Positions 3,035 to 33,384 of a stretch of 64,000 nt of DNA are shown piece after piece. Both the position numbers and the translations under genes were made by a program. Source of the stretch: a virus; IMG/VR virus record IMGVR_UViG_3300020463_002440, positions 62,001 to 126,000 of that record, one strand, 5' to 3'. The notes below the pieces were generated by a model. The model had not been told where the DNA came from and did not search any database. It was given only the letters and a program-made list of their open reading frames with translations. Positions within the stretch are counted from its first letter, which is position 1; each line of letters begins with the position of its first letter.

Positions 3035-3457
3035 CTATTTATCCTTATTTGTCCAGGCGCAACTCTTTCGTAAACCTGATGTACTAAAACGATGATCTCT
3101 TTTATTAAAAAACAATTCAACGTCTCTTTTACGACAAATATCTTTTCCGGTAAATTCTTTATCTCTATATTCTTCACCTAAAATACGAACATGAATTGTA
3201 TATAATTCTAATATATCTTCAAGATCTCTTTCAGTTGAATATGGAATGATTTCATCAACATAACTTACAGCTTTAAGTTGAGTGTATCTTTCAACAATAG
3301 TTTGGATAGGATAATTTTTTTCTTTAGGTCGGTCAGTGGCAGGATTCATTTGTAATCCTACAATTAAATAATCACATTGTTCTTTTGCATCTCTCAGCAT
3401 TTGAACATGTCCAGCATGAAGTAGGTCAAAGCTACTACAAGTAAATCCAATTTTCAT
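3035..3457 (-). CDS. TagD-like cytidylyltransferase (glycerol-3-phosphate cytidylyltransferase family)
   Basis: 140-aa single-domain nucleotidyltransferase. It begins MKIGFTCSSFDLLHAGHVQM, with the HxGH nucleotide-binding signature at residues 14-17 and the second family motif RFSTSGLR at 123-130. Members transfer CMP from CTP to a phosphorylated small alcohol (glycerol-3-phosphate, ethanolamine phosphate or similar); the true substrate is not deducible. The length matches TagD. A strong GAAGGAAG site precedes the ATG. It sits between the neck/tail-completion gene 15 and gp16, with only 4 bp before gp16, and so is probably expressed late with the virion genes. It could help modify a virion component or a host surface precursor; this is inference. 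It is a different subfamily from the HxGH domain at 9349-10110. Confidence 0.85.
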   Translation of the reverse strand: MKIGFTCSSFDLLHAGHVQMLRDAKEQCDYLIVGLQMNPATDRPKEKNYPIQTIVERYTQLKAVSYVDEIIPYSTERDLEDILELYTIHVRILGEEYRDKEFTGKDICRKRDVELFFNKRDHRFSTSGLRKSCAWTNKDK

Positions 3458-3471
3458 AATATTCTTCCTTC

Positions 3472-4329
3472 TTAACTAGGTTCGGTATCAGAGATCTGCT
3501 CGATAAAGTCCCAGTTGTCATCAAATTCAATTAAGCTATAATCAACAGTTTGTGTTATATCTGAAGTCGCAACATTATTTGCTGTCGACCCAGGTTGCAT
3601 TGTTTGAAATTCTTCAAACGTTGTATTCGCAAGATCAGTACTTGCGTAACGAACATCAATAAATTTAATTGTGTTCTTATCCTTTTCAGGTCCGAAGAAC
3701 CAACCTTTCATTGTAAAGTTTAATGTATATAATATACTTCTTCTTGTTGTAAAGGCATCTTCGTAAATATCTTCTGATGCAACATCATTTAAAATTAATG
3801 GTATATCAATCGGTTCTAATCCAGTTATTAAATTTACAGTACTTGTAAAATCTGGATTAAAGAATGGTAAAATTTGTTCTAATACTTTAACAGCATCTTC
3901 ATTATATTTTGCCATAATGTATAAACTGAATCCCATATTATATGGAGTACCTGAATAGACAAATCTTCTTCCACCATTTGCTTGATCTACGGTAGTCTTT
4001 CTTAATTTTCTTGTTGGTGCAACTTTTCTTTCTGCATCATATGTAAAACTTGTTAACTCAAAAGACATACGAGGTAATGTAATTCCGTATGGTTGTCCTG
4101 CGATCGGTTGTCCTCGTGCATCTGTTGTTGCACCACCTTGTAATGCAGGATCTTGGTCAAGACGAACTAATATCTTTTGATAAGGAGCATATGATATAGG
4201 TACAATCTGTCTCTGATTTAAAGTACCATCAGTGCTTGTTCTTCTAACTTCAACCTGATTAAAATATGTACCAAATAAGGCAACATATTTACGAATCGTA
4301 GAATTGTAAAAATAATTTGCTATTGCCAT
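3472..4329 (-). CDS. 15: Tail sheath stabiliser and completion protein, gp15-like
   Basis: 285-aa protein beginning MAIANYFYNSTIRKYVALFG, a very characteristic start of T4-family gp15, with the RMSFELTSFTYDAERK block and the later FTMKGWFFGPEK segment also family-typical. Gp15 forms the hexameric ring that caps the finished tail tube and sheath and provides the head-joining surface. The start codon overlaps the stop of the gp14 gene by one base (TAATG), so the two are probably translationally coupled. Length is close to T4 gp15. The C-terminal tail is acidic and low-complexity. Confidence 0.92.
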   Translation of the reverse strand: MAIANYFYNSTIRKYVALFGTYFNQVEVRRTSTDGTLNQRQIVPISYAPYQKILVRLDQDPALQGGATTDARGQPIAGQPYGITLPRMSFELTSFTYDAERKVAPTRKLRKTTVDQANGGRRFVYSGTPYNMGFSLYIMAKYNEDAVKVLEQILPFFNPDFTSTVNLITGLEPIDIPLILNDVASEDIYEDAFTTRRSILYTLNFTMKGWFFGPEKDKNTIKFIDVRYASTDLANTTFEEFQTMQPGSTANNVATSDITQTVDYSLIEFDDNWDFIEQISDTEPS

Positions 4330-5018
4330 TAGTTATCACTTATTTGTATATTTTCACTAAATGGATCTACTTCTGAGAAATCTAATATACTATCGCCTTC
4401 AACTTCAAAGTCAAGGTTACGAGCAAGATCATCAGTTGTTGAGATTGCATTTAGTGTTGCGTTATTTGCGTCAACAATAATATCAGTATTGTAAGCAGCA
4501 AAGTAATCGTCAATGTTAGAACGACCTGTATTAAATCTTTGATTACTGTATTCTATTAATTCACATACCATATCATAGACTTGTGTTTGTCCCATTTGAT
4601 AGAATATGCTTTCATGTTCGACATTCTTAATTTCAAAAATCTTTTCATTAAGTGGGAAGTAAATTAAATCACCTTCTCTTGGACGAATAAGATCAACAAC
4701 TTCTCGAGTCACATGTCTTTCAAAAGTTCTATTAGCAACTGTAAGTGTTAATTGATCTCTTATTTGTAATCCAAACTTAGATAAGAAATCGCCTTCTCCT
4801 TCAAAGCCTTCCATATTTTTAACATAAGCTTCAAATTCAAAAGTTTCGTTGTACTCTGGGAAATCATCTTCGTTGAAAATTTTGTCACGGCCTTTGATTG
4901 CTCTACTGATGTAAATGACATCAACACCGTATTGCTTGATGGATTCAATAACTAAATCATCAATTAAGGTTTGCTCTGATATTCTAGCGTAATTATTAAA
5001 AAATACATTAGTTGCCAT
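4329..5018 (-). CDS. 14: Neck protein, gp14-like
   Basis: 229-aa protein beginning MATNVFFNNYARISEQTLID. The pattern of an N-terminal helix followed by FEAYVKNMEGFEGEGDFLSK and a beta-rich REGDLIYFPLNEKIFEIKNV segment matches the T4 gp14 neck family, which with gp13 closes the head portal and joins it to the tail. It sits between gp13 and gp15 as in other T4-like phages, three bases after the gp13 stop and overlapping gp15 by one base. The C-terminus is acidic. Confidence 0.92.
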   Translation of the reverse strand: MATNVFFNNYARISEQTLIDDLVIESIKQYGVDVIYISRAIKGRDKIFNEDDFPEYNETFEFEAYVKNMEGFEGEGDFLSKFGLQIRDQLTLTVANRTFERHVTREVVDLIRPREGDLIYFPLNEKIFEIKNVEHESIFYQMGQTQVYDMVCELIEYSNQRFNTGRSNIDDYFAAYNTDIIVDANNATLNAISTTDDLARNLDFEVEGDSILDFSEVDPFSENIQISDN

Positions 5019-5021
5019 GCT

Positions 5022-5765
5022 CTACCCAATATAATTGTATGATAGAGGTTGTAATTCGTTGACGGCTTCTTCTTCCATTAATTTTCTTTCCTCACGACCG
5101 TCTGCTAAAATTTGTTCCCCATTAAATGATACTCCTCCAACTAATTGCATTCCACTAAACTTGGTTAAGTTTGATCCCCACTGTTCTTTGATTAAAGCAG
5201 AGGTATAATTTTGTAACCAACGATCTGACCACACATCAGAATATGTTGAAGCATCTATTACATCATAAGCTTCAATAATAATATATTCACCTGGCACTAA
5301 CAAGTCTTTGTCCATGTCTATGAATAATTTATTTACGTGTTTATTATATCTTATTCTTGGTTTGCCTACAAGCATTTCAGATAAAAATTCCATGTGAGAC
5401 ATTGCCATATAATAGTTTGTGATATTATATCCAGTGATATCTTCAAGATTATTTAAAACAAACTGGTATTGTACATTAAAGATACCTGAACCAGTTGAAA
5501 TACTTGACTGCATATTAAAGATGCCTGAAATACCAAGCAATCCTGATGGTAAGTCAATGTATCCGTTGTCTTTGTCGGCTTGAGTTAATTGATGTTTTAA
5601 GTATACTAATTGACTTCCGTTATAATGATAGTCTCTCCAATAATCTATTGCTTCATCAATACGATCATCAATTTGCTCATCAGAAACATTAATGTCAATG
5701 ACAGGCGCACCAAGCTTTCTTAAAACCCAGTCTTTAAATTCGTTTCTTGTTGTTGGTTGTGCCAT
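5022..5765 (-). CDS. 13: Neck protein, gp13-like
   Basis: 247-aa protein beginning MAQPTTRNEFKDWVLRKLGA, the family-typical start, with DRIDEAIDYWRDYHYNGS and the later GEYIIIEAYDVIDASTYSD block. Gp13 binds the portal vertex after DNA packaging and recruits gp14. It is the first gene of the unit gp13-14-15-cytidylyltransferase-16-17. The ribosome site is weak (GAG about nine bases before the ATG). A late box lies only about 23 bp upstream. Confidence 0.93.
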   Translation of the reverse strand: MAQPTTRNEFKDWVLRKLGAPVIDINVSDEQIDDRIDEAIDYWRDYHYNGSQLVYLKHQLTQADKDNGYIDLPSGLLGISGIFNMQSSISTGSGIFNVQYQFVLNNLEDITGYNITNYYMAMSHMEFLSEMLVGKPRIRYNKHVNKLFIDMDKDLLVPGEYIIIEAYDVIDASTYSDVWSDRWLQNYTSALIKEQWGSNLTKFSGMQLVGGVSFNGEQILADGREERKLMEEEAVNELQPLSYNYIG

Positions 5766-9348: not shown

Positions 9349-10110
9349 TTAATCTCTTCTTTCAATATCAGATTCTTCGAGTTTATCTCCAAGCCATACT
9401 TCAATTACTTTTGCCGTTTCAGTTCCAACATTAGTTGCTTTGTGCCAAACTTCTTTTGGAATGTCAACGCTCATTCCTGCATGATATATTTTTGTATGTT
9501 TTGAGCCAGGCATTCCATCATCCCTATCGAGTTCCATTAAAACAGAACCACTTACAATATGCCAATGTTCAGATCTATGAAAGTGTCGTTGGTCGCTTAA
9601 TGATTTATCTGGGTCAAAAGATAATTCTTTTACTTGCCATGAACCATTTGTATCCAAAACTTTATATGTTCCCCATTTACGTTGCGTTACAGGTTGAGAC
9701 CATTCTTTTAATATCCAACTTGATGAGTTCTTTTTATTCTCTCCACCAATACCAAACTCAAATGTAACTCCTTCAACTGCCATTTCAGGGATGTTATCTG
9801 ATGTTCTATCACCACCGTTTACAAATATAATAGTATCTGAAGGATACAAAAGTTTAACTTGTTCTAAGCAATGTATTGCCGTGTCATCTGAATCATCAAA
9901 ATCAATAACTTTATCTACACAAGCAAGTTCTGAAACAATAGCTGCTCTTTCTTTAAATGGCATAAAGTATTTACCTTTCTTTCTTATAAGCCATTCATCA
10001 GAATTTAAACCAACGATTAATTTTAAACCACTAAGACTTGCTTCTTTTAAATACGCAATATGTCCTGAATGAATTGGATCAAAACCACCTGTGGCAACTA
10101 CTGTAATCAT
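9349..10110 (-). CDS. Fusion enzyme: HldE-type nucleotidyltransferase + ManC-type phosphomannose-isomerase cupin
   Basis: 253 aa. The N-terminal domain (about residues 1-103) starts MITVVATGGFDPIHSGHIAY, with HSGH at 14-17. It continues LIVGLNSDEWLIRKKGK and ends in a VNGGDR strand, as in the ADP-heptose synthase/RfaE2 adenylyltransferase family. The C-terminal domain (about 145-253) is a cupin. SDQRHFHRSEHWHIVSGSVL carries the metal ligands (H176, H178, E181/H182), H223 is the fourth, and the end VWLGDKLEESDIERRD resembles the GxYLxEDDIxRxxD tail of ManC phosphomannose isomerases. I chose the ATG at 10110 (GGAG eight bases upstream; ATGA overlap with the upstream gene) over 10137. It should activate or isomerise a sugar phosphate; the substrate is unknown. 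Late expression with virion genes suggests modification of virion or host-surface glycans. Confidence 0.8.
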   Translation of the reverse strand: MITVVATGGFDPIHSGHIAYLKEASLSGLKLIVGLNSDEWLIRKKGKYFMPFKERAAIVSELACVDKVIDFDDSDDTAIHCLEQVKLLYPSDTIIFVNGGDRTSDNIPEMAVEGVTFEFGIGGENKKNSSSWILKEWSQPVTQRKWGTYKVLDTNGSWQVKELSFDPDKSLSDQRHFHRSEHWHIVSGSVLMELDRDDGMPGSKHTKIYHAGMSVDIPKEVWHKATNVGTETAKVIEVWLGDKLEESDIERRD

Positions 10111-11300
10111 TGTATTGACTCCATAAAATAATCCCATACAAAATTACATTCTTGCGCAGGCGCCTGTAATTCATTTATTGTATCTCTGCCAATTACATCA
10201 GGATGAATAAACCAATCTTCGTATGGATGATTTTCTGTAAACGAAACATTAGGAACAACTAATTCATAACCTAGTTTAAATAATATTTCTCTTGCCTCAT
10301 CTCTTCTTTCTCCACCTAGACGATAAGAATCATGTTCAAAAGTAATAACACCAAACTTATAAAAATCAAATGGAATCTTTTTCAAAATATCTATTGAGGC
10401 TTCGTCGCAATCAATTTGTAAATAATCAATGACAGGATCCATACAATGTTTATTAAATAAATCAAGATAACCAATTTCAGTTGCATCTGCACAAATGACT
10501 GTACTATTTCTTTCTTCTTTAAATTTATAACACAAAGCTTCTGAATTGTCAATAGAAATACCATTCCAACCAAACTGTGATAATAGAGCTGTATTATTAT
10601 GTATGTAAGGATCTCCTGAACCAATTTCTAACCAACTGCCGCGTTTCTTTCCATTAAACGCAGATAATACAAACATATCTTGCATGTGTTTAGAATAATT
10701 TTTTTGTACTTCTTCAATTCCTATGAAAGGATATTTAAATCTTTCTATATCTGAAATGTAATAATTTATTGTGTCAGGATAGAATATATTGTTTAGTATT
10801 TCTTTAGCTTTTTCATGTAGTTCAGATTCTAATTTTTCTCTAAAGATTAAATCAAAAAATAAATGTTTTCCATTTTGTTGACCAGATATGTACCAAGTTG
10901 CTAACGCTTGAAAAAATAATATGTCTTGATGTTCTTTATCTGTTTGTTGAAATTGTAATGCAGTCTTTGCATGCGCTAAACACTTTTTCCATTGACATGT
11001 CTGTTCGTAAAATTTACATAAGTAATAATGAGCAGCTGTTCTTGTAGGATTTAAAGCAACTGCATCAAGTAATGCACCTTCTACTGTATATCCTCTATCT
11101 CTTTGTCTATCATAACATAAAGCAATTCCAACCATGCAATCATATTGTAAATCTACACTATCAGTAATATCAGCAGACTTTAAATACAAAGATACTGCCA
11201 TTGCTCCTTGCTCTAATCTGTCGTATTCTTGAGCAAGATCAAAACATTTATGTGGATTCTTTGGATCCATAACATGTTCTTCTAATAATTTCTGTAACAT
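10107..11300 (-). CDS. TPR-like helical domain + FkbM-type SAM-dependent methyltransferase
   Basis: 397 aa. Residues about 1-175 are helical and TPR-like (HKCFDLAQEYDRLEQGAMAV, later RTAAHYYLCKFYEQTCQWKK). From about residue 218 an FkbM-type methyltransferase follows. The SAM loop is GSWLEIGSGDP (221-231), then GWNGISIDNSEALC with the acidic ribose-binding position, YLQIDCDEASIDILKK, and FEHDSYR near 321-327. FkbM-family enzymes O-methylate sugars and related small molecules. The gene lies three bases after the GH130-like gene and shares an ATGA overlap with the nucleotidyltransferase-cupin, so the three form one cassette. The acceptor is unknown; TPR may bind a protein partner. A GAGGATAG ribosome site precedes the ATG. 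Confidence 0.75.
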   Translation of the reverse strand: MLQKLLEEHVMDPKNPHKCFDLAQEYDRLEQGAMAVSLYLKSADITDSVDLQYDCMVGIALCYDRQRDRGYTVEGALLDAVALNPTRTAAHYYLCKFYEQTCQWKKCLAHAKTALQFQQTDKEHQDILFFQALATWYISGQQNGKHLFFDLIFREKLESELHEKAKEILNNIFYPDTINYYISDIERFKYPFIGIEEVQKNYSKHMQDMFVLSAFNGKKRGSWLEIGSGDPYIHNNTALLSQFGWNGISIDNSEALCYKFKEERNSTVICADATEIGYLDLFNKHCMDPVIDYLQIDCDEASIDILKKIPFDFYKFGVITFEHDSYRLGGERRDEAREILFKLGYELVVPNVSFTENHPYEDWFIHPDVIGRDTINELQAPAQECNFVWDYFMESIQ

Positions 11301-11303
11301 AAT

Positions 11304-12338
11304 CTATCCTCTTGCCACAAAGTCAAAAAATAGTTTCTCAGGCATTCTTAATATAAATGTTCCGTTATCTTGATAACCAAAAGCAATTACTACTTCACCA
11401 TTTATAAATGCCATTCCAGTCGCAAACTCAATATTATATTCATATCCTGTGGTTGGATCTATTTGCGTACCTAAAAAATGAAAATCTTTTGTATGATGAA
11501 CCATATTCCAATCTTCATCCCATACAACTATTCTATGATTATAATGTCCATCTTTACGCATAAAGGCATCTCTTGTTAAATCAACCTCATGAGTAAATGT
11601 CATTCTTCGACCTTCACCAATTGGATAAACTTGAGTACCACCTCTAAGATCTCTGGGTAACTTATATGTTTTATCACTATCATGTACAACAGTAGTTGTT
11701 GTTCTTGTATCAATATCGTACTTAACTACTTCAACGGGATTGCACCATTTAACAAAATGCCATGGCATATCAATAATTGGCATCCAGTTCTTTTCACAAA
11801 AAGTTCCATCATCTCCTGGAGCAGGTATAGGATTACGTGAAACTTCTTGCCATTCATTATCAATGTATTCTATTTCACACATCTCCATTCGTCCTGTTCC
11901 TTGGTCGTCATAACAATCTCTTCGAACACCACATAAGAATAAACGATCATCCCAACTAAATAATCTACCATCCTCAAGACCAATAAAATTCCAGGTAGGT
12001 TCACCTGTATCTAAATTCATTTTGATTCTGCTTGCGTTAACAACATTAAAATTTGAATCTAACTCTGTCATAATGTTATGAGTTGTTAGTGTTATGTCGT
12101 TTTCTGGATGTAGATATTGTAAAGGACCCCAGGTATGAGGAAACTTTTTACCTTCTGAATGATATAGTGTATAATTAACATGACGAACATTCATTAGAAT
12201 TTTATCGTTGTGCACGAAAATAGACGGGTTCATAATGCCCGTTTCGCCTGTTAAATCTTTTGGAAGTGTAATTGGATGAATCGTACCGCCTCTTTTTAAG
12301 GCGTAATGCACCAATCCGTGATGCCGTAAATCATGCAT
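11304..12338 (-). CDS. GH130/GH32-like five-bladed beta-propeller protein (possible glycoside phosphorylase or hydrolase)
   Basis: 344 aa. Repeated blade-like segments resemble the GH130 mannoside-phosphorylase and GH43/GH32 superfamilies: NPSIFVHNDKILMNVRHVNY (about 37-56), FIGLEDGRLFSWDDRLFLCG (about 117-136; compare the family GxEDPR motif), EKNWMPI (about 184-190), a GGTQVYPIGEGRRMTFTHEV strand pair, and FATGMAFINGEVVIAFGYQD near the end. Such enzymes cleave or phosphorolyse mannosides or fructosides, but the Pro of EDPR is Gly here, so activity is uncertain and a glycan-binding role is possible. ATG at 12338 has GGAG five bases upstream. It lies upstream of the methyltransferase and nucleotidyltransferase-cupin genes, which supports a carbohydrate role. 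Confidence 0.6.
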   Translation of the reverse strand: MHDLRHHGLVHYALKRGGTIHPITLPKDLTGETGIMNPSIFVHNDKILMNVRHVNYTLYHSEGKKFPHTWGPLQYLHPENDITLTTHNIMTELDSNFNVVNASRIKMNLDTGEPTWNFIGLEDGRLFSWDDRLFLCGVRRDCYDDQGTGRMEMCEIEYIDNEWQEVSRNPIPAPGDDGTFCEKNWMPIIDMPWHFVKWCNPVEVVKYDIDTRTTTTVVHDSDKTYKLPRDLRGGTQVYPIGEGRRMTFTHEVDLTRDAFMRKDGHYNHRIVVWDEDWNMVHHTKDFHFLGTQIDPTTGYEYNIEFATGMAFINGEVVIAFGYQDNGTFILRMPEKLFFDFVARG

Positions 12339-12369: not shown

Positions 12370-12702
12370 TTAAGACCAAGGTATTGCGCGTTCGGTTGTT
12401 ACTAATTTATTTATTGACTCTTGTATTTTTAAATTGTAATCATTAATGGAAGCTTCAGAGTTGAGAGTGTTTAACCATCCCACAACCTTATCTTCTGTTA
12501 AATCAGTGAATGATGTAAAGTCTGCTTCAGCGGTCTCATGTGCAGATAAGACTGTAAAACCTACAACCTTACCAGTATTGCCATCTGAATCAACTCCGAT
12601 CCGTCTCCATTTAATTCTTACAACAGCATCTGACAACGTAACGCCGTCAGCGTTCGTCTGATCTCTAGTGTCAAACTTAACAATTTGCCAAGAATAAGTC
12701 AT
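12370..12702 (-). CDS. Small structural protein, 110 aa, paralogue of the 138-aa neighbour
   Basis: Starts MTYSWQIVKFDTRDQTNADG. It aligns along its length with the gene at 12717-13133. Shared features are W-x-V near the start, RDQxNxxGxTLxxAxVxxxW, a DSxGNxG turn, FxxFxDLTExxVxGW and a final PW. Mixed beta strands followed by two helices suggest a compact domain. I do not recognise a named function; related small proteins are common among structural genes of marine T4-like phages. Tandem duplication explains the pair. Confidence 0.65.
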   Translation of the reverse strand: MTYSWQIVKFDTRDQTNADGVTLSDAVVRIKWRRIGVDSDGNTGKVVGFTVLSAHETAEADFTSFTDLTEDKVVGWLNTLNSEASINDYNLKIQESINKLVTTERAIPWS

Positions 12703-12716
12703 GTGTTATTCCTAGC

Positions 12717-13133
12717 TTATTCGCCGTCGTCTGCTGGGTCAGCTGCATCGTCAGGTACAGGTGGTGTCACATCTTCAGTTGCCCAAGGCATTGTTGGTTC
12801 TTCGATGTTAGCTTCGTCAATTTGCTTTGCTACCATTTCTGAGATATGATCCGCATATCCTTGGTCAGCATTTACTACTGATTGAATCCAACCTAAAACA
12901 GTTGCTTCAGTTAAATCAGCAAATGCTACAAATGAACCAGCTGGGACAGCTGCTGCTGTAAATGGAGTAGCTCCTGAGAACTCTCCTTTGTTTCCGCTAG
13001 AATCTTCACCTTCAACTTTCCAAAATGTTTGGACAATAGCGCCTTCTAATGTTGCGCCTTCAGAGTTAACTTGATCTCTTTTCTTGAGACTAGTTACGCT
13101 CCAAGTCCATGTGTAATCGCTACTTAGTGCCAT
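12717..13133 (-). CDS. Small structural protein, 138 aa, paralogue of the 110-aa neighbour
   Basis: Starts MALSSDYTWTWSVTSLKKRD and shares the RDQ-N-G-TL, DSSGNKG and FADLTEATVLGW blocks with the 110-aa gene 14 bp downstream. It has an extra acidic, Pro-rich C-terminal tail (PPVPDDAADPADDGE) absent from the shorter copy. First gene of its late unit; the TATAAATA box is about 44 bp upstream. Function unknown. Confidence 0.65.
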   Translation of the reverse strand: MALSSDYTWTWSVTSLKKRDQVNSEGATLEGAIVQTFWKVEGEDSSGNKGEFSGATPFTAAAVPAGSFVAFADLTEATVLGWIQSVVNADQGYADHISEMVAKQIDEANIEEPTMPWATEDVTPPVPDDAADPADDGE

Positions 13134-13176: not shown

Positions 13177-13184
13177 TATTTATA
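13177..13184 (-). promoter_or_regulatory. T4-type late promoter box, TATAAATA
   Basis: Exact late box on the minus strand immediately after the stop of the 144-aa gene and about 44 bp before the 138-aa gene. It would drive 138-aa, 110-aa, GH130-like, methyltransferase and nucleotidyltransferase-cupin genes. Confidence 0.7.
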
Positions 13185-13185
13185 A

Positions 13186-13620
13186 TTAATCTTCAGTACA
13201 GCCAGCATAATAATCTAATGACTTAAGATGAGTATACGCTTGTACTAAATCTGAATCAGTGGAATCCATGTCTAACATGAATATACACTTTTGGTCAAGA
13301 CCTGGTGTACCAATTGATAGTTCAGCTTCAACCTCTGTTGCGTTTTCGCCTGCTATACCAATAGGATTTAAACCATCAGTCCTTGCTTGTTTTGTTGCCC
13401 ACATGGTTACCCATATACGACAAACATATCCCTCTGCCCAATACATATCAGACCCTGCTTCTCTAACACCATCGTTAGTCAATCCAGACGGTAATGAAGT
13501 ATCGGGTGGTAAAGGAATTTCTTGTGTTCTTTTATGAACCTTTATATCTGTAATAACGTGATAAGCGTCAGGCACGGTCACACCAGTACCTTGTATCTCG
13601 TAATCTTTAATTAGTGCCAT
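13186..13620 (-). CDS. Uncharacterised structural-region protein, 144 aa
   Basis: Starts MALIKDYEIQGTGVTVPDAY. A beta-rich first part (DAYHVITDIKVHKRTQEIPL) and a VCRIWVTMWATKQARTDGLN strand-helix segment follow. The start lies 14 bp inside the 3' end of the giant fibre gene, implying coupled translation and a role as fibre partner or tip/assembly protein, by analogy with the usual 'fibre then small accessory protein' order. This is inference; no family recognised. Confidence 0.6.
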   Translation of the reverse strand: MALIKDYEIQGTGVTVPDAYHVITDIKVHKRTQEIPLPPDTSLPSGLTNDGVREAGSDMYWAEGYVCRIWVTMWATKQARTDGLNPIGIAGENATEVEAELSIGTPGLDQKCIFMLDMDSTDSDLVQAYTHLKSLDYYAGCTED

Positions 13621-16600
13621 TGCTACTATTCTCCATTATTGATTGCATATTATATACCATTTCTTTTAGAATGTCAATATCTTTCTGCATATTATTTATT
13701 GTTTCTTCTTTACTCTTGATGATAGCGTTTTGGTCCTTAATACCTTCAACAAGTAAACCAACCATCTTAGGATAATCAAGTCCGTATTCATCATCTTCTT
13801 CATCGTAAGTTACAACCTCTGGAACAATAGGTTCAACTTCTTGGGCAATAAGACCCATTTGAGTACTTAGGAATGAATTATCACGTTCATCTTCCCATTC
13901 AGCAAGCTTACGAGTATATGTTACACCGCGTAATTGTAATACTTTATCAAGAGCATTTTCGATAGTTTGTATATTTTCTTTACGACGTCTATCTGAATAA
14001 GCAACTACGTTACCGGTAGCCCATAGTGAACCATTAACTTGCATTCTATAACCGCTTCGTGTTGCCGACGAACCTACACCCAGACAGTTATTACCACGGC
14101 TATGATAGTATACCCAACGACCGCCACCTTGTAGATAGATACCACCACTACCGTTGCTGTCGAACATTAGGTGCGGATCCCAAGTAGGTTGTGGCCATGA
14201 TAAACCGTACCATCCACTTCTGCTACCGTATATTGCCCATGAGCCGTAACTTGTTTGGTTATTCGGGAAGAAGTGAGCACCGTTATATCCATCATAGATA
14301 CCAACACCGCCGCCACCAACTTGTAACCAAGTATTTGCATAAGTATAACTTGAACCACCGTTGATTTGGAATCTAACAGTGTTTGAGTTATAATCATTCA
14401 TGAACCTCATGCCTTGATAGCTTGGGTTCGCTCCGAAGTCAAGACCTACGTGATAGTTAATTCTTAATGCGGGATATGGATAACTCCAACTACCTGATGT
14501 CTGGAATAATTCATAAGGATAAGAACTAATTGCTCTTCCTGAGTTACTGCCTGTACCATTAAAGTCAAATACGTATGCACGTACTTGGTTCATATTTGAT
14601 GTTGATGCTGGATCTGTATAATAACTTGTACTATTAGAATCGTAATAACGACCTGCATACATTGATCCACCATTCGTACTATTCTCATCTAATACTGGAA
14701 TTGTTCTCCAAGATCTCCAACCACTCCATGAACTTCTAAACCTAAGGTTAGTAATTGGTCCACCAACCATCTGCCAACCATAACCTGATGTATTACTATT
14801 TCTATAGTGATAGGCCTGAACTCCAACCCAGTGAGATGTACCTGACGGTTGATTAGGTGGATTACTCCAAGAATCAATAAATCCTGAACCCCAAGTTGAA
14901 ACGACGTTCATATCTTGACGTCCCCAACCCATTGAACCGGTCCAATAATCTGTATTACTTGTTATACGAGGTCTTGCTCTATAATACTCACCGCTGTTTC
15001 TTGTATGACCCGGCTGACTAATGTAAGCCATTGTTCTATTACTTACACCTTCAAACCTTGTGCTATGAGCAGAAGCACCGTTGAAGTAATAACCTGTATT
15101 GTTTCTATCGTAATAGATTGGTGCTCTTACATCAGTTCCAACATAAAGATTTCTATAAATTTCAGTATAAGAACTGCCTGGGTTAATACGAACTGCCCAA
15201 CCACCTGAACTATTTAATAAACCGAAACCACTACTGTCGTAATAAAGGTATCCACGACGACCTGTACTTGAGCCCTGTGAACTATTATAACGATCATATA
15301 TAATTAATCCACCTGATGAACTACCGCCGTCTAAGTGCCAATAACTTGTACCTGCAGCATAGAAGTGTCTTCCGTATGGAGTACTATATAAACCACGACC
15401 TCCATTATCGTTTCTGAACCAACCATCGTTGTAAATTTCTCCACGAATATCTAATACATTCATTACTGAAGTAGAAGCAAAGTCTCCATAATAGGCAGTA
15501 TTATTTGAATCATAATAACGGCCTGCGTACATTGAACCACCATTACCGCTGTTTTCATCCAACATTGGTATTGTACGCCAAGCACGGAAACCAGACCAAG
15601 AACTTCTGAATCTAAGGTTAGTGATCGGTCCACCAACCATCTGCCAACCATATCTTGCTGAACCGTTAGAATAGTGATATGCTTGTACACCAACCCAATG
15701 CGAAGTACCGCTTGGTTGATTACCTGGGTTTGACCAAGTATCCAAGAATCCTGAACCCCAGTTAGCAACTGTGTTAAAGTCAATTCTACCCCAACCTTTA
15801 GCTCCTGTCCAATAGTTGGTATCACTTGTTATATTTGGTCGTCTACCGTAATTACTTATTGCTCCATTTCTTGTATGACCCTGCAATCCAATCATTGCTT
15901 GACCACGAGCAGTTAAACCTTGCCAGTTTGAATCACCATTTGGATTCATGTAATAACCGGTGTCGTTTAAGTCATAGAATATTGGAGCACGGAATGATTC
16001 ACCTGAATAAACATATCCATAATAGAATCTATGATATGAACCGTTATAATAGAAGTTCCAACTACGTGTATTATCATGCATACCCCAGTTGTTGCCTTCG
16101 GTTGACATTAGAGTCCATCGAGTACCAATACCATAACCTGACCAACCGTTTCGACCAGTATTATATGTTGAGATGTTTCCGTATGGATTACCTTCACCAC
16201 CTGCTGAACGAATACCATATCCGTAATCTTGCCAATAAACACCAGTACTACCTTGAGGCCTAAACCAATTATTAGCATATACTGCGCTGAGTTGAGAACT
16301 GGCGGCTGGATCTACATAATAGCCGGTGTTATTCCAATCGTAGAATATTGGCGAACGAATATCTGAAGCAAATACCGCTCTACTTGATATAGCAGCTCTA
16401 AACGAACCATTGTTAATAATTAACATACCGTGGTCGTTTAATTGATTTGCACCACCTATCGAACCTGCGTTTGGATGCGACCAACCAATACCATACATAT
16501 TTGCAGTCGAAGCACCATTCGAGCTCGGTCTATAAGCAGCACCCATTGCGAATACTAATTGTAATCTTGTAGAAGTATATGTACCTGTTACACCGATACC

Positions 16601-19600
16601 ATAATTCAAGAATGTATGATAACCACTTTGTTGTGAAGCATTCCAATAGGAAGTACTTGCTGGATTTATATAGTACCCAGTATTATTTAGATCGTAGAAT
16701 ATCGGTGCTCTAAACGAACCTGATGTTTGTACTAAGTTACGACTATTTTGAATATATGAATCGTATGTTAGTCTCCATGCCTGAGTTGGGAAACTATCGT
16801 TACCGCCAATAGCAGCATACCAACCAGTTTGACCGCTACCCCAACCGCTTGCATACTTATATAAACCAGTATTAAGATGAGTTCTATAACCTGAATTATA
16901 TAATGCAGTTTGGTGAGTTAATGGTAAGTATACATTAGATGTACCAACATTGTAATCTCTGTTTCTTGTTGAGATTGGAGCATTAGTTAAACCACTTAAA
17001 CTTGTTGAATCGTATTTCTGTGGATTATCAACATAGAAGATTGCATTTGAAGTTAATGTACCAGCAAGTGTTAACGCATTTAAGTTTGAAGTACTTGCCG
17101 GGTCAAGATAATAACCAGTGTTTTGACGATCATAGAATATGTTAGCACGGAATGAATTAGATGCATAAGTATTACCATCCATCATTGCTTGGAAAGGCCA
17201 ACCTTGAATACTACCAGTTGCTGCACCGTGTTGACCTACATAGAATCCTGTTGAACCTGTACCGTTATTATTATTTGAGTCAAGGTTAAAGAAGATGTCA
17301 TGATAAGAGTTAAATCTTAAATCATCTGTTACACCGCCACCATTATCTCTTGATGAAATACTGTGATAGTCAGAATCGTTTCCGTAGAATGTAATGAAGT
17401 CACCACGATCTCTCATATTGAGTCTGTCAACTGTGACCGTTCTCATTGAAGCATCACCTTGGCCTGAACCAAAGTAGTATGCTGTATTTTCACGTTCGTA
17501 GAATATGTTAGCTCTTACATCATTCATATACGATACACTAGCAAAGTCACCGTAGTAAGCTGTATTATTTCTATCATAATAACGAGTAGCTCTTATATCA
17601 CCACCAACATATACCGCACTTGTATTATACCAAGCAAGGTAAATGTTGTTTCCGTTTTTAGCGTCTAAATGCAAGTTACCATTTGTAGAAGAAACTGTTG
17701 CATATGATGTTGTCCATCTACCGTTACCGCCTACTGCAAGATATTCGCCCCAACTTGCATTAGGCCCGTGTAATGTTCCACCTCTTACTCTTATTGCCGA
17801 ACCAGATGTTGAATTAAAGTCAGCATAATAACCTGTATCATTTGAATCATAAAAGACTGGAGCTCTTAGTGATGAACCTGCTTGTAAATTATTATTAACA
17901 AATACGTTACCAGAACCTAATGGGTCTGAACCATTATTGATTGACATGACCTGAGTTGCCATGTTATAATCATTATAGAATCTCATACCTTGGTAAGAAG
18001 CATTTGCACCAAACTTAATACCTGTGTGGAATGCAATTCTTAAATCAGGATAAGGGTAAGTCCAAGAACCACCTTCACGGAAGATTGCATAAGCTGTACT
18101 TTGCCCACTAGCAAAATATAAACCAAATTGGTCGTCTTGTGAAACAGCATCGACGTGCGCAAATCTTTGTGCCTTAACAACATTCATTACTGAAGTTGAA
18201 GCAAAGTCTCCGTAGTAAGCAGTGTTGTTTGTATCATAGAAGATAGGTGCTCTTAATGATCCACCAGCAAATAAGTAATTAGGAACATATACAGTATTAT
18301 TTGATCTTGTCTGCAATGTTTCATAACGAGTACCTGCTGTATTCGTATTATAGAATGTCATATAACCGTTAGTGTCAAATCTCATGTAAGCCTGACCATG
18401 AGAAGTATTTGGTCGACCTAAGTAATATTGATTTGTACCACCATTGAGATTATTATCAACATTATAACCGAAGCCTGCACCAGACCAAGTTCTTCCTGGT
18501 TCTGATACCCACATCTGTAATGGTATTTCACCTTGTCCTGCTCCATTATTTGCGGCAGGTAATGCCAATCTTATTGATGTGTTACCATGACCTGCACTTA
18601 CATCTAATGTCTTAGTGCTGTTGGCTGATCTTGTTCCAATTCCTAATCTTAACACCTTACCATTATTAGCAGGATCTAAATAATAATTAGTATCGTTGTA
18701 GTCGTAGAATAATGCAGCTCTTGCATCTCCACCTTCAACATATAAGTTATTACCACCTTCAACTCTAACGTGTGTATCACCTTTACCTACTGAGAATAAT
18801 ACAGTACTTAAGTCTTCGTTGTTGTATATACGAGTACCACCATAGCTTGGCTGAGCACCCATACGAATACCAGTATGCCATCTTAAATCAAGCTTGGTAT
18901 AATTACCACCGTAATTTTCTAAGTTTGTACCGATGTAATAGTTGCCTACAGCATTACTATCTCCACCACCAAACATTAACCTTGTTGAACCAACTGAGTT
19001 ATATGGATTGTTTGAGAAGTTACCACCAATTACAACATAGCCTGCAGTTCTTAATGTATTAAGTGCAGATTCACTTGCTGGGTCTGTATAATACGAAGTG
19101 TTATTTGAATCATAGAAGATTGGAGCACGTGATTGTCCTCTATGCCACATATATGTATTGTTTAATCTATATCTTTCAGCACCGCCTGCTAATAATCTTA
19201 GACCGTAAGTATGAGATGTACCCATACGAATATCCATACCGTATTCAGTAGCTGAACTACGGTTCTTATTAATTACTACTCCCCAATCATTATTTGTGGT
19301 TGCAGTGAAGTAAGCAGTTGCATCATTACTATTTTGTCTACTACCGCCATCGACAACCAACTCTTGCATTGTTTGTTTTACAGTATTAGAATTAGATGCA
19401 GGATCGTTATAGTATGCAGTGTTTCCTCTATCGTAATAAATGTTAGCATCTATACGATCAGCAGTAATATCATCAACTGATAGATCACCCGTTATTGTTG
19501 CGTCACCACCAACAATTAAATCATCGAGTAATTGAAGATCATCAGCTAATAAGTTAGATTCAGCATTACGTCTCTTCAACATAATACCGCCATACTCTCT

Positions 19601-22600
19601 TAAAGCACCACCTGCGTTATAGTTAAGTAATATTCTTATTCTTACATAATGTACACCACCACCATCAGACCCATTATATGGAGTATGAGATGTTGGCATT
19701 GTTGTATGGTTTCTTAATGTTTCCCAGTTTGTACTTGTTCTGTTTGAACCACCAACTACGAAATATGTTGTACCTGTATTACCTGCGATTGGTTTCTTAT
19801 CTTTATCAAATCTCTCAACACCGTAGTATAATAAACCACCAGAGCCTGAAATAAGTCTTGTTGATATTTCACCATATATTTCTTCACCAGGAGAAACAGG
19901 AATATAATTTGAATAGAAGTTTCTATATGCAGATGATCTTAATACATATCCACCTGCGAAAGGACCATCTCCTTTAATATATTCACTTGTAGTTCCTGTA
20001 AGAAAGTTTTCATTAGCGTCAATGTTTTGTATTACCCTTGCTTCCATATAAGGGGTCATATCGAATAGAACAAGATCTGCTCCACCTGAACCGTATGCTG
20101 GGTTCAATGATATGTTTTCATTACCACCATTTAGTTCAAAGTTACCTGCAGAAACTGAACCTTGGAAATATGCGTTACCATTATCGAGATCAATACTTGC
20201 TCTTACATTACCTGAACCTACAAATACTAATTCATTTGGATTAGAAGTACTGAAGTGTGAATAAGCAGGGTTAGTATTACCTGCCCACATAATACCCCAG
20301 TTAGTAGCAGTTTGCCATATCCAATGAGTGTAATCTTGCGCTCTCAATAATATGTTAGCATTACCGTTGCCTGAAGTAGTGAATCCTAGTCTGTCATATA
20401 TACCATTTGTTCTAAACGCAGTACTTGTATTACCTGATCCTTGATTAGAGTAATAAGCAGTATTATTTGAATCATAATAGATTGGAGCACGCATTTGGTT
20501 AATTGCTTCAAAGTAACCGCTTCGAGTTGAAGCCTGTTCTGAACCATTATAATATAATTCTACTTCAGCATTTCTTCTAGCTAGGACTGCCCATTTGTTA
20601 TCAATGTCGTTGTAGATACCGGCATTGTTGGTGCCATCTGACATAAAGTTCCATTGACCATTAATAGAATAACCGGCCCAACCATTTTTAGCACCGCCAA
20701 CTTCAACTGTTCCATAATCACCTGATGCAGCATCCATGTAATATGTTGTTGCATGATTGAAGTAATATCTTAAGGCTTGAACTAAATTAAATCTTGATGT
20801 ATTATTTGGATCTACATAATAGCCTGTATTATTTGAATCATAAAAGATTGGAGATCTTATTTGATTATTAGCAAGGAAGTATCCATTTTCTGTTCTTGCT
20901 TGTTCTACATTGTTATATAGTAATCTGATAGCAGCTTGACGATCTGCATACATAAACCAATGATTATCTACATCGTTATAGATACCTGTTCGGTTTGCAT
21001 TATCGTGCATGAATACAGAACGACCACCAATTGAGAATCCTTCCCAACCACTTCTTCCACCGCCGTCGACCATTAATGAACCATAAGTACCAGTTGGTTC
21101 TGCTAATACAACTGCATTACCATCAAGAGTAATTGTATCCATTCTTGATGAGCCGGCTGGATTTACATAATATGCAGAGTTATCTGAATCATACAATATT
21201 GGTGTATGAATATTTGTATCAACTTTTAGAGTACCAAATATTTGAGACTTAAATGAGTTTCCTGTATATGATCCCCATCTTTGAACTGCTGCCCATGATC
21301 CTGTACCAATTGTTTCTGATAAGTAAATCGGTACTCCGCCACCATGGTCAAACTTATGGAATTTATGAGCCCAGGTATTACTGTTGTAATTACCTCTCAT
21401 CATTAATCCGTTAGTACTTGAGTTTGCACCACCTGCGTTTTCGTTACCAACATTAATATTCATATACTGTTGATAAGAAGTACCTGCTGGGTCAGCATAG
21501 TATGTATTGTCGTCTGCATCGTAATAACGGCTAAAGTAAGCATTGCTACCAGTTACATTACCTGAGAAGTTACCAACTTGAGCATATATGTTAGACCAAC
21601 GATAAGTAGATAAACCTAAATTACCAGCATTATTTTGTCTAGGTATTAATGATCCACTGCCTGCTCCATTTTGTTGTGCAAATACATAATGAACATTATT
21701 TTCTGAAGAATCAAATAGCATTGCCAATTCAGCACCAGTAGTAACTGAATTGTCGGCATGGAATACTTTAATAGAAGCTTGTTGTTTTCCGCTTAATCCT
21801 GGAAGTTCACCGGATTGGTCGGTCATTGTAATGCCGACACCACCACCATTACTTTGTTTTTGTAATTCTATACCTGAGCCGTAAACTTCAAATTTATTTC
21901 TTGCTCTTACTGCTGAATTAGTTACTTTAAATCTTTCAGTACCGTTAGTATCAATTTTAACAGTATCGTTACCTGAGAAACCAATTAAAGTATTTGTATC
22001 TCCACGATGTCTTATATAATCATCAAGATCAATAGTGCTTAATTGTGAGTTACCATCTGGGTCAGCATAGTATGCTGAATTCTGATATGAATAATAAACA
22101 TTACCATAATATGAACCTTGTGTATATACATGTTTATTATTTCTTGAGCGGAGATATGTTGTATCAAGCATATACCAACCGCCACCCCAACCGAATCCTA
22201 ACTCTTCATCTTTAAGGAATGTTGATGTGCCACGACCAATTACAATAGCATCGTCATTACCTGCTAATTGAATTGAACCGCCTATGTGTAATCTGTTTGT
22301 TGTAAGTGCTCCACCAACTACTGGAGTATTATCACCTACCGTATATGTTGGAGCAGTTGAGTTTGCGATCATAACGTTTCCGCTATCATCAACAATTAAT
22401 GCTTCACTTGCACCTGATGTCCAGAATCCCCAATTAGTTCCTGATCCTAAAATGTTATAGATATTTCCAGAACTGTCACCGCGAATCGTTGCTCCGCTTG
22501 CAGCACCATCAGTTCTAAATTCTATAAATCTATTTCCATCATTAAATGGATTACTTCCAGCATCAATTCTATTAAGATACATTAATGCATATGTACCTGA

Positions 22601-25450: not shown

Positions 25451-25498
25451 TCGGTTCACTCTCCCCAGATAGGCGATTTAAATTATATTGTACTGTTT

Positions 25499-31900: not shown

Positions 31901-33049
31901 ACCAATTGTCACATTACCTGTAATATCAGCATCACCATCTACTGTGAATGTGGTTCCACTGAATGTTAATTTACTACTGTCTATTAATTCGCCATCAAGA
32001 CCTGAGAATACAACTCGTCCTGATGTTAAGTCAGTAACATTAACACTTCCTAATTCTGTTTGCCCAGGTACTCTAAGTATATCTAAAAATACACCACCTG
32101 TGGCTGTAATTGAAACTCCATCGAAAGATAAGTTAGCAGTATCAATTAATTCGCCGTTTGCTCCGGCATACATAATTCGACCTTCGGTCAAATCAATAAT
32201 ATTAACACTACCTAACGATGCTTGTCCAGGAACAGACATGTTATCCAAGAATACACCGCCTGTTGCGATAATACTTGTATCATCAAATCTTAAATTGGCA
32301 GAGTCAATTAATTCTCCACCTGCTCCTGCATATACGATACGACCTTGTGTAAGGTCTGAAACGTTTAAACTATCTGTATCTGTTTGACCATCAACTTGTA
32401 ATCCATCTAAGAATACCGCTCCTGTAGCTGTAAGAGAAGTACCGTCAAAGAATAGATTAGCACTATCAACAAATTCTCCGTTGGCTGCTATGAAAGGTAT
32501 TCTTGTTGCTGTTAAATCTGAAACACTTAAACTATCAACATCAGCTTGACCGCTAACGTCTAATGTATTTGATGAAAGCGGACCACCAATATCTAAACTT
32601 GTTAATCCAACAAGAGTATTAGTTGATTCACCTAGTGTAAGAGAGGTATTACCAATTGTGATATCATTAGAAGATATGATTGTTGAATTGGCAGAAAAGT
32701 TTAATGCGTTGAAACTTACATTCTCAAAATCTGTAATATGTCCAAAAGTATCAATGGAGATATTCTTTGGATAAGATAAATTTTGGTTTGTAGTACTAAC
32801 AGCATTTGATGTGTCAGCATGGCCTATAACAACATTTGCTGCTTGATCGTTAACAGTTTGGGAAACAACAATTCCGTTAGCAGATTCTATTTGCTGAACG
32901 TAATTACCAATTGTGTCGATACCGAGAACAACAGAATCAGGAACGATCTGTGGCTTTCTCTCAGCTGGTGCAACAATAGGAGTTGACTGACCTTGTTTTG
33001 GGACGGCCTTTATCGCACGGCCACCACCGATCTTGACCTTTATACTCAC
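28976..33049 (-). CDS. Tail fibre / baseplate-associated fibre protein, 1357 aa
   Basis: Starts MSIKVKIGGGRAIKAVPKQG. The middle is built from repeated xLTxGR(I/V)(V/M)(Y/F)AGxxGEL(I/V)DSANLxFDGTS modules (about residues 150-430, again about 560-760) and two long related halves, each with a GNLxLGDxxVDxINVVADF segment and a VKDVDxDTFI(R/E)AE segment. Near residue 1120 and beyond, two copies of the FxDxxDxxYxxNPAG-type motif of the giant fibre occur (FVSKDDLSFYADPAGTS, FIDSQDVDYLLNPAG). The C-terminus ends in beta-rich sequence without S74. The start overlaps the 112-aa gene by four bases. Fibre identity is clear from repeats; the place in the virion is not. Confidence 0.8.
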   Translation of the reverse strand: MSIKVKIGGGRAIKAVPKQGQSTPIVAPAERKPQIVPDSVVLGIDTIGNYVQQIESANGIVVSQTVNDQAANVVIGHADTSNAVSTTNQNLSYPKNISIDTFGHITDFENVSFNALNFSANSTIISSNDITIGNTSLTLGESTNTLVGLTSLDIGGPLSSNTLDVSGQADVDSLSVSDLTATRIPFIAANGEFVDSANLFFDGTSLTATGAVFLDGLQVDGQTDTDSLNVSDLTQGRIVYAGAGGELIDSANLRFDDTSIIATGGVFLDNMSVPGQASLGSVNIIDLTEGRIMYAGANGELIDTANLSFDGVSITATGGVFLDILRVPGQTELGSVNVTDLTSGRVVFSGLDGELIDSSKLTFSGTTFTVDGDADITGNVTIGGNLTLGDNQVDTINVVADFTSDLIPDAPGLYSLGAPTKNWHRVFTPTIKSDSGVVTIDETGAFTLPVGGTADRPTSAVGMIRYNTSDSRFEGYDGTAWSELAGSVKDVDKDTFIRAELSPGADGDDLEFFTAGVKRMEIDQDGDLTFGANNGITIDYSSEKATFTDAAVSKIPTGSVVYTSSGGTLEGQANLAWDGTNLTIVGGITVDGDFSTSGGLSGDSLSVGNLQANTMMFVSDTGALSSNNNIQFDGSHMVVNATSEFRTAPTFETVSQGQVFVAGANGAIEGDSGLTYNQTTDVLSVGSLTDGRVVFAGPSGALTDDAGFTWDGSLFRVVGSGEFTGDLTIAGNLQLGDQAVDSINVVADFSSNLLPKDDATYNLGASGSQWNTLFVTKIDSDNEVLVIDTTGAITVPVGTTANRPSSLAAGMVRFNTTDGVFEGYSGNAWASLGGVKDVDQDTFIEAESSPGADNDELNFVTAGVSAFIVDSQQRINSGTANLVFEIGGHIDVGNTVITGLADPVSNTDAVTKFYLEETFDRDFHVTKAANTYVLDLFDKVDKPSIEIGTGLTIETYDQANNVVAIGFDPVWQSFTGLREAGVEGTVPNFNFDVYGRVRSLVNVPLSVSSNAVVDFVPSIYGVVEDAVRNGNFERGIRVTANSAIQKLDFVTDNFDIALLGDVTGSGTVISNSNVAITTTFDYVTLDERYINAQGGDTSNGDLRATKFVSKDDLSFYADPAGTSRLKDLHIGYNQPNSQIILGTGSGNMYFYAQGTKAGFLSSSFNFGTYFDTTDNGWHVEDGSVYSRNFIDSQDVDYLLNPAGENSRFKGLNLDTQIAIGGNLTIANNTISNASGDITVNPTTGVFSVDNSIITNVNDPVNSKDAVNKQFLDTAVGNLTTAGINIAAETGTTDVVALGETITYSAGEGINTTVANNQITIAGELASDSNIGVASFNVANFTVASGDVTVTTLDGGTF

Positions 33050-33384
33050 GAAACCTCCGTAATAGTATCAACTACGATTGCTAAGCCTTCAACTATTTTG
33101 GTGAGTTCTCCTGTTTGTTTTTCCATCACTACGTCGTATTGGTATTTACCAGGAGCTAAAAGATCTGTCTGCTGGTCAGTTAATACTAACGTAATATCGT
33201 TATTTGCGACTTCGATTGTAAAGTTAGTAGCTGCAGTACTTGAATATACTTTTCTTATGCTACTATAGAAATTATAAACAGAGATAGTTGCGTCATCATA
33301 TTCGACACCCTCATCATTAAACAGATTTAGCTCTGTTCTGAAGTCCAATCCTTTATCAATGTATATGTTAGCTCTTGATGCCAT
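33046..33384 (-). CDS. Small beta-sandwich-like structural protein, 112 aa
   Basis: Starts MASRANIYIDKGLDFRTELN and shows alternating strands (DATISVYNFYSSIRKVYSS, NNDITLVLTDQQTDLLAPGK) ending with GKYQYDVVMEK. This layout resembles small Ig-like baseplate/fibre attachment proteins (BppU N-terminal type) but is not diagnostic. It overlaps the 1357-aa fibre start by four bases, so it is probably a stoichiometric partner or adaptor of that fibre. It is the first gene after a terminator-like hairpin and an exact late box. Confidence 0.65.
   Translation of the reverse strand: MASRANIYIDKGLDFRTELNLFNDEGVEYDDATISVYNFYSSIRKVYSSTAATNFTIEVANNDITLVLTDQQTDLLAPGKYQYDVVMEKQTGELTKIVEGLAIVVDTITEVS

Follow-up and report, generated by a model that had tools for sequence, protein, structure and literature searches.

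Enzymes that make or break mannosides include a group with one five-bladed fold: the GT108 enzymes are transferase-phosphorylases with the same fold and mechanism as GH130, and the GH130 mannoside synthase Uhgb_MS uses mannose-1-phosphate (Man-1-P), as set out in the accessible text of PMC8950772. Mannose is activated by bifunctional proteins such as ManC, AlgA and PslB, and sugar genes, isomerases and FkbM genes are already known from phages. Here we describe a cassette of three genes in a 64,000-nucleotide stretch of viral DNA (the window; bases 62001-126000 of the 156,383-base record IMGVR_UViG_3300020463_002440), which encode a propeller protein (gene 1), a TPR-FkbM protein (gene 2) and a nucleotidyltransferase-cupin fusion (NT-cupin, gene 3). 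A role of some kind in building a glycan is probable, and the wider viral family of the propeller points the same way.

Results

Conservation of the three-gene cassette

The trio lies on the minus strand at 9349-12338, between tail-fibre genes and relatives of gp13, gp14 and gp15 of a T4-like phage (Table 1). An initial annotation of this DNA had described three tightly coupled genes within structural genes, which is borne out by the open reading frames (ORFs), the two junctions and the fibre and gp13-15 flanks. Against the possibility, which the same annotation had raised, that the three genes never occur together elsewhere, a search of viral contigs with the propeller returned 51 loci, with a TPR-FkbM gene adjoining in 51/51 and NT-cupin in 49/51. 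The contigs of the remaining two (L030 and L051) stop inside the TPR-FkbM gene. The co-occurrence is more than chance.

Pooling the loci found with the propeller and with NT-cupin gave 76 with all three genes, 56 of them distinct. Spacing is tight in 55 of these 56 (-4 to +18 bases at the first junction and -4 to +3 at the second), the exception being L088, where the gaps are larger. All 44 distinct cassettes with room have a DUF7936 relative upstream, and gp13/14 lies downstream in 33 of the 36 with more than 7 kb of room. Against five relatives each, the pairwise ratio of nonsynonymous to synonymous substitution rates (dN/dS) was 0.07-0.14 (propeller), 0.20-0.28 (TPR-FkbM) and 0.18-0.19 (NT-cupin).

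A propeller with the GH130/GT108 fold

Gene 1 alone has no sequence match in Pfam, NCBIfam or the PDB, and a propeller profile built from 34 rows had no match among PDB sequences either (E<=10); the link to GH130 comes through fold comparison and profile-profile alignment only. With the AlphaFold model (pLDDT 80.6, pTM 0.85, with a weak loop at residues 59-82) as the Foldseek query, the 44 top rows were all GH130 or GT108 chains, led by Uhgb_MS (E=4.5e-9). Structural re-alignment put 27 GH130/GT108 entries on top (Z 17.6-23.4), followed by GH43 at 17.6 and lower. The predicted fold thus places the propeller with the GH130/GT108 mannoside phosphorylases and mannosyltransferases. At the sequence level, 11 of the 34 relatives match PF04041 (Glyco_hydro_130) weakly, the best with 21.4 bits against a cut-off of 26; profile-profile comparison with 11 bacterial GH130 proteins gave E=7.6e-5 over the last part, and E=3.1e-8 in global mode with 109 propellers.

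In the profile alignment of these 109 viral propellers, N37, R52, E122, D123, R125 and D324 fall on conserved GH130 positions, and each is invariant (109/109). The counterparts in BT3780 are N74, R89, E141, D142 and D363; according to the accessible text of PMC4599007, D142 is invariant and required. N74 and D363 bind the -1 mannose. The equivalents of this mannose-site Asn/Asp pair, placed by the profile alignment, are N37 and D324. GH130 hydrolases have glutamates in place of the basic phosphate binders. Five basic residues of the viral propellers (K183, K197, R232, H250 and H268) are kept in at least 99% of sequences, in a middle part where the alignment is weak, and hint at phosphate or nucleotide-sugar chemistry.

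A TPR-FkbM protein

Taken singly, gene 2 scores 20.5 bits against FkbM (PF05050), under the 22.7 cut-off, and TPR is weakly matched. A profile of 30 gene 2 relatives clearly finds TPR proteins, and the related FkbM proteins of the Synechococcus phage DSL-LC02 and of locus L171 score 41.0 and 42.6 bits with PF05050. The glycine-rich loop of the relatives has E225, G227 and P231 invariant and S228 and G229 at 90% or more (30 rows); we take the E225-P231 stretch to be the SAM (S-adenosylmethionine)-binding loop of FkbM enzymes.

A nucleotidyltransferase joined to an isomerase cupin

Gene 3 exceeds the Pfam cut-offs for both CTP_transf_like (PF01467; 48.7 bits, cut-off 21) and MannoseP_isomer (PF01050; 77.9 bits, cut-off 23.6). 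In an alignment of 127 NT-cupin rows, duplicates included, the HxGH motif (H14, G16, H17) is present in 127/127, as are S172, Q174, H176 and R179; E181 and H223 are invariant too. By motif, the four cupin residues were equated with the Ser, Gln, His and Arg that the accessible text of PMC9602691 names as important in type II isomerases. The model of gene 3 (pLDDT 88.7) has two domains. Fold matches of the cupin domain are phosphomannose isomerases (7zvm, Z 17.1 over 101 residues), with CapF as a second group, and those of the NT domain are TagD (2b7l) and HldC (5xf2, 35% identity over 115 residues). Against the ManC model TIGR01479 the protein reaches 68.8 bits (cut-off 372.95) through its cupin part only, the guanylyltransferase domain being unmatched, and against the HldE C-terminal adenylyltransferase model TIGR02199 it reaches 67.6 bits, far under the cut-off of 181.5. 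Judged by these sequence comparisons, gene 3 is the ManC plan built with another nucleotidyltransferase.

All three domain assignments of the initial annotation (GH130-like propeller, TPR-FkbM methyltransferase, nucleotidyltransferase fused to a ManC-type cupin) are therefore supported, as are the mannose-type hints that it had seen in two of the genes, through the fold group of the propeller and the invariant type II isomerase motif of gene 3. The annotation had also named a lack of active-site geometry as an objection; the catalytic residues that could be placed are all invariant.

NT-cupin was also searched for in 645 cellular genomes (398 + 247). Among the matches listed in order of E-value, full-length or near-full-length NT-cupin occurs in two metagenome-assembled genomes (MAGs) only, three times in G002 and once in G001, and both hold contigs with the trio and gp13-15. 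The other matches listed cover just one half, either the NT or the cupin; the cupin matches lie mostly in frames of 450-550 amino acids (aa), the size expected of ManC. Because the full fusion is confined, among these genomes, to MAGs that carry phage contigs, the NT-isomerase fusion looks viral, and an origin by transfer from a sampled host is unsupported.

NT-cupin outside the cassette

A further 56 NT-cupin loci lack the propeller: 29 in a slot near uvsX, nine in a third slot, seven in the gp13/14 slot, seven elsewhere and four with the NT alone, these four being named cyanophages. Genes of the uvsX and third slots were identified by eye from the sequences, and six of the seven gp13/14-slot loci begin at most 1.3 kb from a contig end. 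Among the 29 uvsX-slot loci, FkbM genes occur in 14, and epimerase and UDPG/GDP-Man dehydrogenase-type genes in 6 each. Two clusters free of Pfam matches, C1 (L120:9805-10716) and C4 (L075:13984-14844), accompany NT-cupin there in 26/29 and 15/29 loci and may be unrecognised glycosyltransferases. A third cluster, C11, found upstream of NT-cupin in some loci, was considered as a replacement for the propeller pair and rejected; its members are either TPR-FkbM proteins or short proteins related to the methyltransferase half of TPR-FkbM, and most lie on truncated contigs.

The trio as the tail of a predicted late unit

The sequence TATAAATA, which we take to be a late promoter of the kind found in T4-like phages, occurs six times on the minus strand of the window and not at all on the plus strand; with 4.25 expected, we rejected this count as evidence by itself. 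Its placement is conserved: it lies within 100 bases upstream of the first DUF7936 gene (-39 to -52) in 25/37 loci, precedes the gene that follows the cassette in 35/38, and stands directly upstream of cassette genes 1, 2 and 3 in 0/49, 0/51 and 0/49. Given this placement, and its absence before the cassette genes, the trio looks like the last part of a single late unit that two DUF7936 genes open. The single late box that the initial annotation had assigned to the trio does hold a conserved position ahead of the unit, but it is common to the two DUF7936 genes as well. Likewise, the argument that late timing speaks against nucleotide supply holds for the window locus, but in other phages NT-cupin lies near uvsX-type genes; such genes are early in T4, and by that analogy NT-cupin would be early there.

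A wider viral propeller family beside tail-fibre genes

The DSL-LC02 propeller as query returned at least 600 viral stretches, of which 80 were kept for analysis. The propeller frame is clearly longer in 7/80 loci, and inspection by eye suggested a radical-SAM-like part (CxxxCxxC) in L178, L180, L222 and L236, a DUF6445-like part in L186, GT17-like and methyltransferase-like parts in L188 and TPR repeats in L208. A Pfam scan of 101 downstream or fused proteins, six of the seven extended propellers among them, found FkbM in 22, radical SAM in 17, DUF6445 in 17, SPASM in 15, GT2 in 13, GT17 in 8 and GT25 in 6. For 39 ORFs upstream of wider-family propellers, tail-fibre and collagen-like tail families lead, the top family accounting for 8/39. 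Since the partners are glycosyltransferases, FkbM, radical SAM-SPASM and DUF6445 proteins beside tail-fibre genes, the make-up of these neighbourhoods favours building rather than trimming. The suggestion that the cassette could build, methylate or trim a sugar is thereby narrowed: biosynthetic domains and neighbours speak for building and methylation, and trimming is less supported.

In contigs of cellular genomes the propeller was found eight times, in MAGs only; five of these have the phage trio with gp13 downstream and three have the propeller and TPR-FkbM only. On a small contig binned as Woesearchaeota (L145:672-5496), which is probably viral, the gene after the propeller encodes two FkbM-like domains; a GT25-like/FkbM-like protein and a fibre-like ORF come next, all as identified by eye.

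Genomic neighbourhood

The late region of this T4-like phage runs, from the right, through baseplate and giant fibre genes and two DUF7936 paralogues to the trio; after it comes an array of fast-evolving genes, several of them starting MAIKV, followed by the gp13, gp14 and gp15 relatives together with the terminase genes. For the large terminase, the closest sequences are those of Sinorhizobium phages phiN3, phiM12, phiM7 and phiM19 (60%), followed by a Pseudoalteromonas phage (53%) and by cyanophages and a Rhizobium phage (47-49%). Two giant repeat-rich ORFs of 3950 and 3755 aa occupy the tail-fibre region (13607-25459 and 39028-50295, minus strand); the end of the first resembles, by eye, an intramolecular chaperone tail, and a relative of the L-shaped tail fibre assembly family (phrog_3304) lies between them at 33046-33384 on the same strand.

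A search of the phage record found one epimerase and two further nucleotidyltransferase-like genes. The former, an NAD-dependent epimerase/dehydratase gene outside the window (L290:5875-6888, E=3.8e-54), has no obvious sugar gene nearby, and nothing else in the record matched a sugar-nucleotide epimerase. Of the latter, one is an HxGH gene of 140 aa in the late region (3035-3457, minus strand), between the gp15 and small-terminase relatives. The other lies outside the window (L291:2521-3997 and 4257-5051) and adjoins a protein that by eye is HAD-phosphatase/kinase-fusion-like, with a sulfotransferase-like gene farther along the same stretch; this group is perhaps another small-molecule activation cluster. 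The record gave no FkbM match, a weak negative given that the search also missed gene 2 of the window.

Table 1. Positions of the cassette genes, their parts and the flanking late-unit features in the window
Feature	Coordinates	Strand	Basis
Late-box-like site TATAAATA, head of unit	13177-13184	-	sequence and conserved position
DUF7936 paralogue, first gene of late unit	12717-13133	-	Pfam and synteny
DUF7936 protein, first gene upstream of trio in its late unit	12370-12702	-	Pfam and synteny
Gene 1, five-bladed propeller, GH130/GT108 fold, 344 aa; EDxR = E122-D123-G124-R125; proposed glycosyl-transferring enzyme	11304-12338	-	ORF
Intergenic gap of three bases, genes 1/2	11301-11303	-	sequence
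Gene 2, TPR repeats (N-terminal third) and FkbM-type methyltransferase (C-terminal half), 397 aa	10107-11300	-	ORF
ATGA overlap, genes 2/3	10107-10110	-	sequence
Gene 3, NT-cupin, 253 aa counted from the ATG start codon in the ATGA overlap	9349-10110	-	ORF
Gene 3 N-terminal half, residues ~1-137: HldE/HldC-type nucleotidyltransferase, HxGH motif	9700-10110	-	
Gene 3 C-terminal half, residues ~139-253: type II phosphomannose-isomerase cupin, S172-Q174-H176-R179	9349-9696	-	
Late-box-like site TATAAATA of next unit, right after gene 3 stop codon	9340-9347	-	sequence and conserved position

Discussion

Domain make-up, conservation, synteny, late-box position, fold match and conserved motifs are what we observed; on them we build proposals for activities, donor, linkage and acceptor. 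The cupin half of gene 3 would convert host fructose-6-phosphate to mannose-6-phosphate, a host mutase would provide the 1-phosphate, and the NT half would make the nucleotide sugar. With its cupin isomerising and its NT activating, gene 3 would therefore work like ManC/AlgA on another nucleotidyltransferase. The propeller, to judge from its fold and neighbours, would move a mannose-type residue from the sugar-1-phosphate or the nucleotide sugar to an acceptor, in parallel with the GT108 mannosyltransferases and a GH130 mannoside synthase. The FkbM part would O-methylate the product, and the TPR repeats would hold the acceptor. The most likely acceptor is a virion protein, of the tail fibres or otherwise, because the unit is late and sits among fibre and neck genes and the wider family adjoins tail-fibre genes. 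The sugar could be mannose, or heptose or another manno-configured sugar. Taken as a whole chain, virion target included, this scheme, in which a manno-type glycan is made, transferred and O-methylated late in infection, has about an even chance of being right; the builder part draws on the neighbours, and the fibre part on position and timing.

Several points weigh against this chain. We know of no member of the cassette family with a known activity. The propeller stays under the Pfam cut-off for PF04041, the window protein having no match and its best relative falling short, and its phosphate-binding residues map without confidence where the middle of the alignment is weak. In the cupin, position 178 is His in 59/127 phage proteins vs 29/32 ManC-type matches picked by profile (in an earlier ManC reference set the 29/29 His followed by construction from the HxH-requiring pattern used to choose it). 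The phage's own record gave no phosphomannomutase-type match and no GT2 match. The virion destination of the sugar is predicted from position and timing, and NT-cupin is also found away from fibre genes, in the uvsX region.

This last point bears on the closest competitor, in which the same chemistry would change a host surface glycan (lipopolysaccharide or capsule) late in infection, blocking superinfection or keeping virions off debris. We consider it unlikely, though a serious contender: NT-cupin occurs in other phages outside the fibre region, in the company of genes for nucleotide-sugar dehydrogenase, epimerase and FkbM, and a host-surface role is the usual reading of cyanophage sugar genes in the accessible text of PMC9602691. 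Against it, the trio keeps a fixed place between fibre and neck genes, and the wider propeller family lies downstream of tail-fibre genes, so that virion fibres are the more likely site of the glycan.

The kinship of the NT half with HldE/HldC and TagD, and CapF as the second group of cupin matches, would also fit a sugar other than mannose, with an ADP-heptose- or CDP-polyol-like donor, the cupin as its isomerase or epimerase and the propeller as its transferase. Such a donor is improbable, in that the type II isomerase motif is invariant and the fold group of the propeller acts on mannosides. Lower still we rank glycan use, in which the propeller would phosphorolyse a host mannoside to Man-1-P and the isomerase would feed central metabolism. 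GH130 holds many phosphorylases (PMC4599007, PMC8950772) and viral isomerases have been interpreted as supplying fructose-6-phosphate to central metabolism (PMC9602691), as far as the accessible texts go, but an isomerase-fused nucleotidyltransferase and an FkbM methyltransferase misfit catabolism, the wider-family neighbours are glycosyltransferases and modifying enzymes, and so late in infection there would be little to gain. A structural or sugar-binding virion propeller devoid of catalysis, for which its place among structural genes and its sub-threshold GH130 score would speak, is very hard to reconcile with the invariance, over 109 sequences, of its acid motif and the other mapped residues, with strong constraint and with fusions to enzyme-like parts.

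More tentatively still than the fibre-glycan chain itself, we suggest a widespread virus-specific glycan-building system, in which NT-cupin as a ManC analogue would supply an unusual nucleotide-mannose, the GT108-like propeller, a candidate new transferase family, would pass it to TPR-recognised tail-fibre proteins, and swapped FkbM, radical SAM, DUF6445 and glycosyltransferase modules would diversify the sugar coat of the fibres. If true, hundreds of aquatic phages would make and methylate their own sugar on host-contacting parts, which would matter for host range, for the masking of receptors and for evading sugar-binding defences. A viral branch would be added to the GH130/GT108 enzymes, together with an isomerase-nucleotidyltransferase combination beyond those in the cellular genomes searched. 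Part of the ocean-virome 'viral mannose-6-phosphate isomerase' signal, so far assigned to central carbon metabolism, may then be glycan building.

Comparison with known systems

The GT108 enzymes (Leishmania MPT/MTP) and the GH130 synthase Uhgb_MS share with the propeller the five-bladed fold (re-aligned Z 17.6-20.4), EDxR and the mannose-site Asn/Asp. The propeller differs in having 10-14% identity to them, in falling under the Pfam cut-off and in being virus-specific, with a fixed TPR-FkbM partner and with fusions to radical-SAM-like, DUF6445-like and GT17-like parts. In ManC, AlgA and PslB (mannose-1-phosphate guanylyltransferase plus type II isomerase) the nucleotidyltransferase likewise comes first and the isomerase cupin last, and the isomerase motif and most cupin positions are common to both; NT-cupin departs from them in its HxGH nucleotidyltransferase of the HldE/TagD kind in place of a guanylyltransferase, in its length (253 vs ~470 aa) and in position 178, which is not conserved. 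The HldE C-terminal domain and HldC, of ADP-heptose synthesis, have the same kind of HxGH nucleotidyltransferase, as seen in 5xf2, whereas gene 3 is without a kinase half and has the isomerase cupin fused on. The mannose-6-phosphate isomerase of cyanophage S-SCSM1, also from a marine T4-like phage, has the type II domain and the four key residues but is a single-domain enzyme interpreted as part of carbon metabolism, as far as the accessible text goes (PMC9602691).

A related layout is found in the GenBank entries of Synechococcus phages S-SCSM2R and DSL-LC02, in which the propeller is directly followed by TPR-FkbM with an 8-base overlap. In DSL-LC02 the pair has fibre genes next to it; in S-SCSM2R the neighbouring gene carries the label baseplate wedge and tail pin. 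Unlike the cassette, neither has an adjoining NT-cupin, and FkbM is extended by radical SAM-SPASM (DSL-LC02) or DUF6445 (S-SCSM2R). GenBank labels on the propeller of two phages are MGP protein and beta-mannosyltransferase. In the literature, which was covered in part, we found no description of the cassette, of a viral propeller family with swapped partners or of an NT-isomerase fusion. As far as the literature was searched, the viral propeller family with its exchanged partners and the NT-isomerase fusion appear new.

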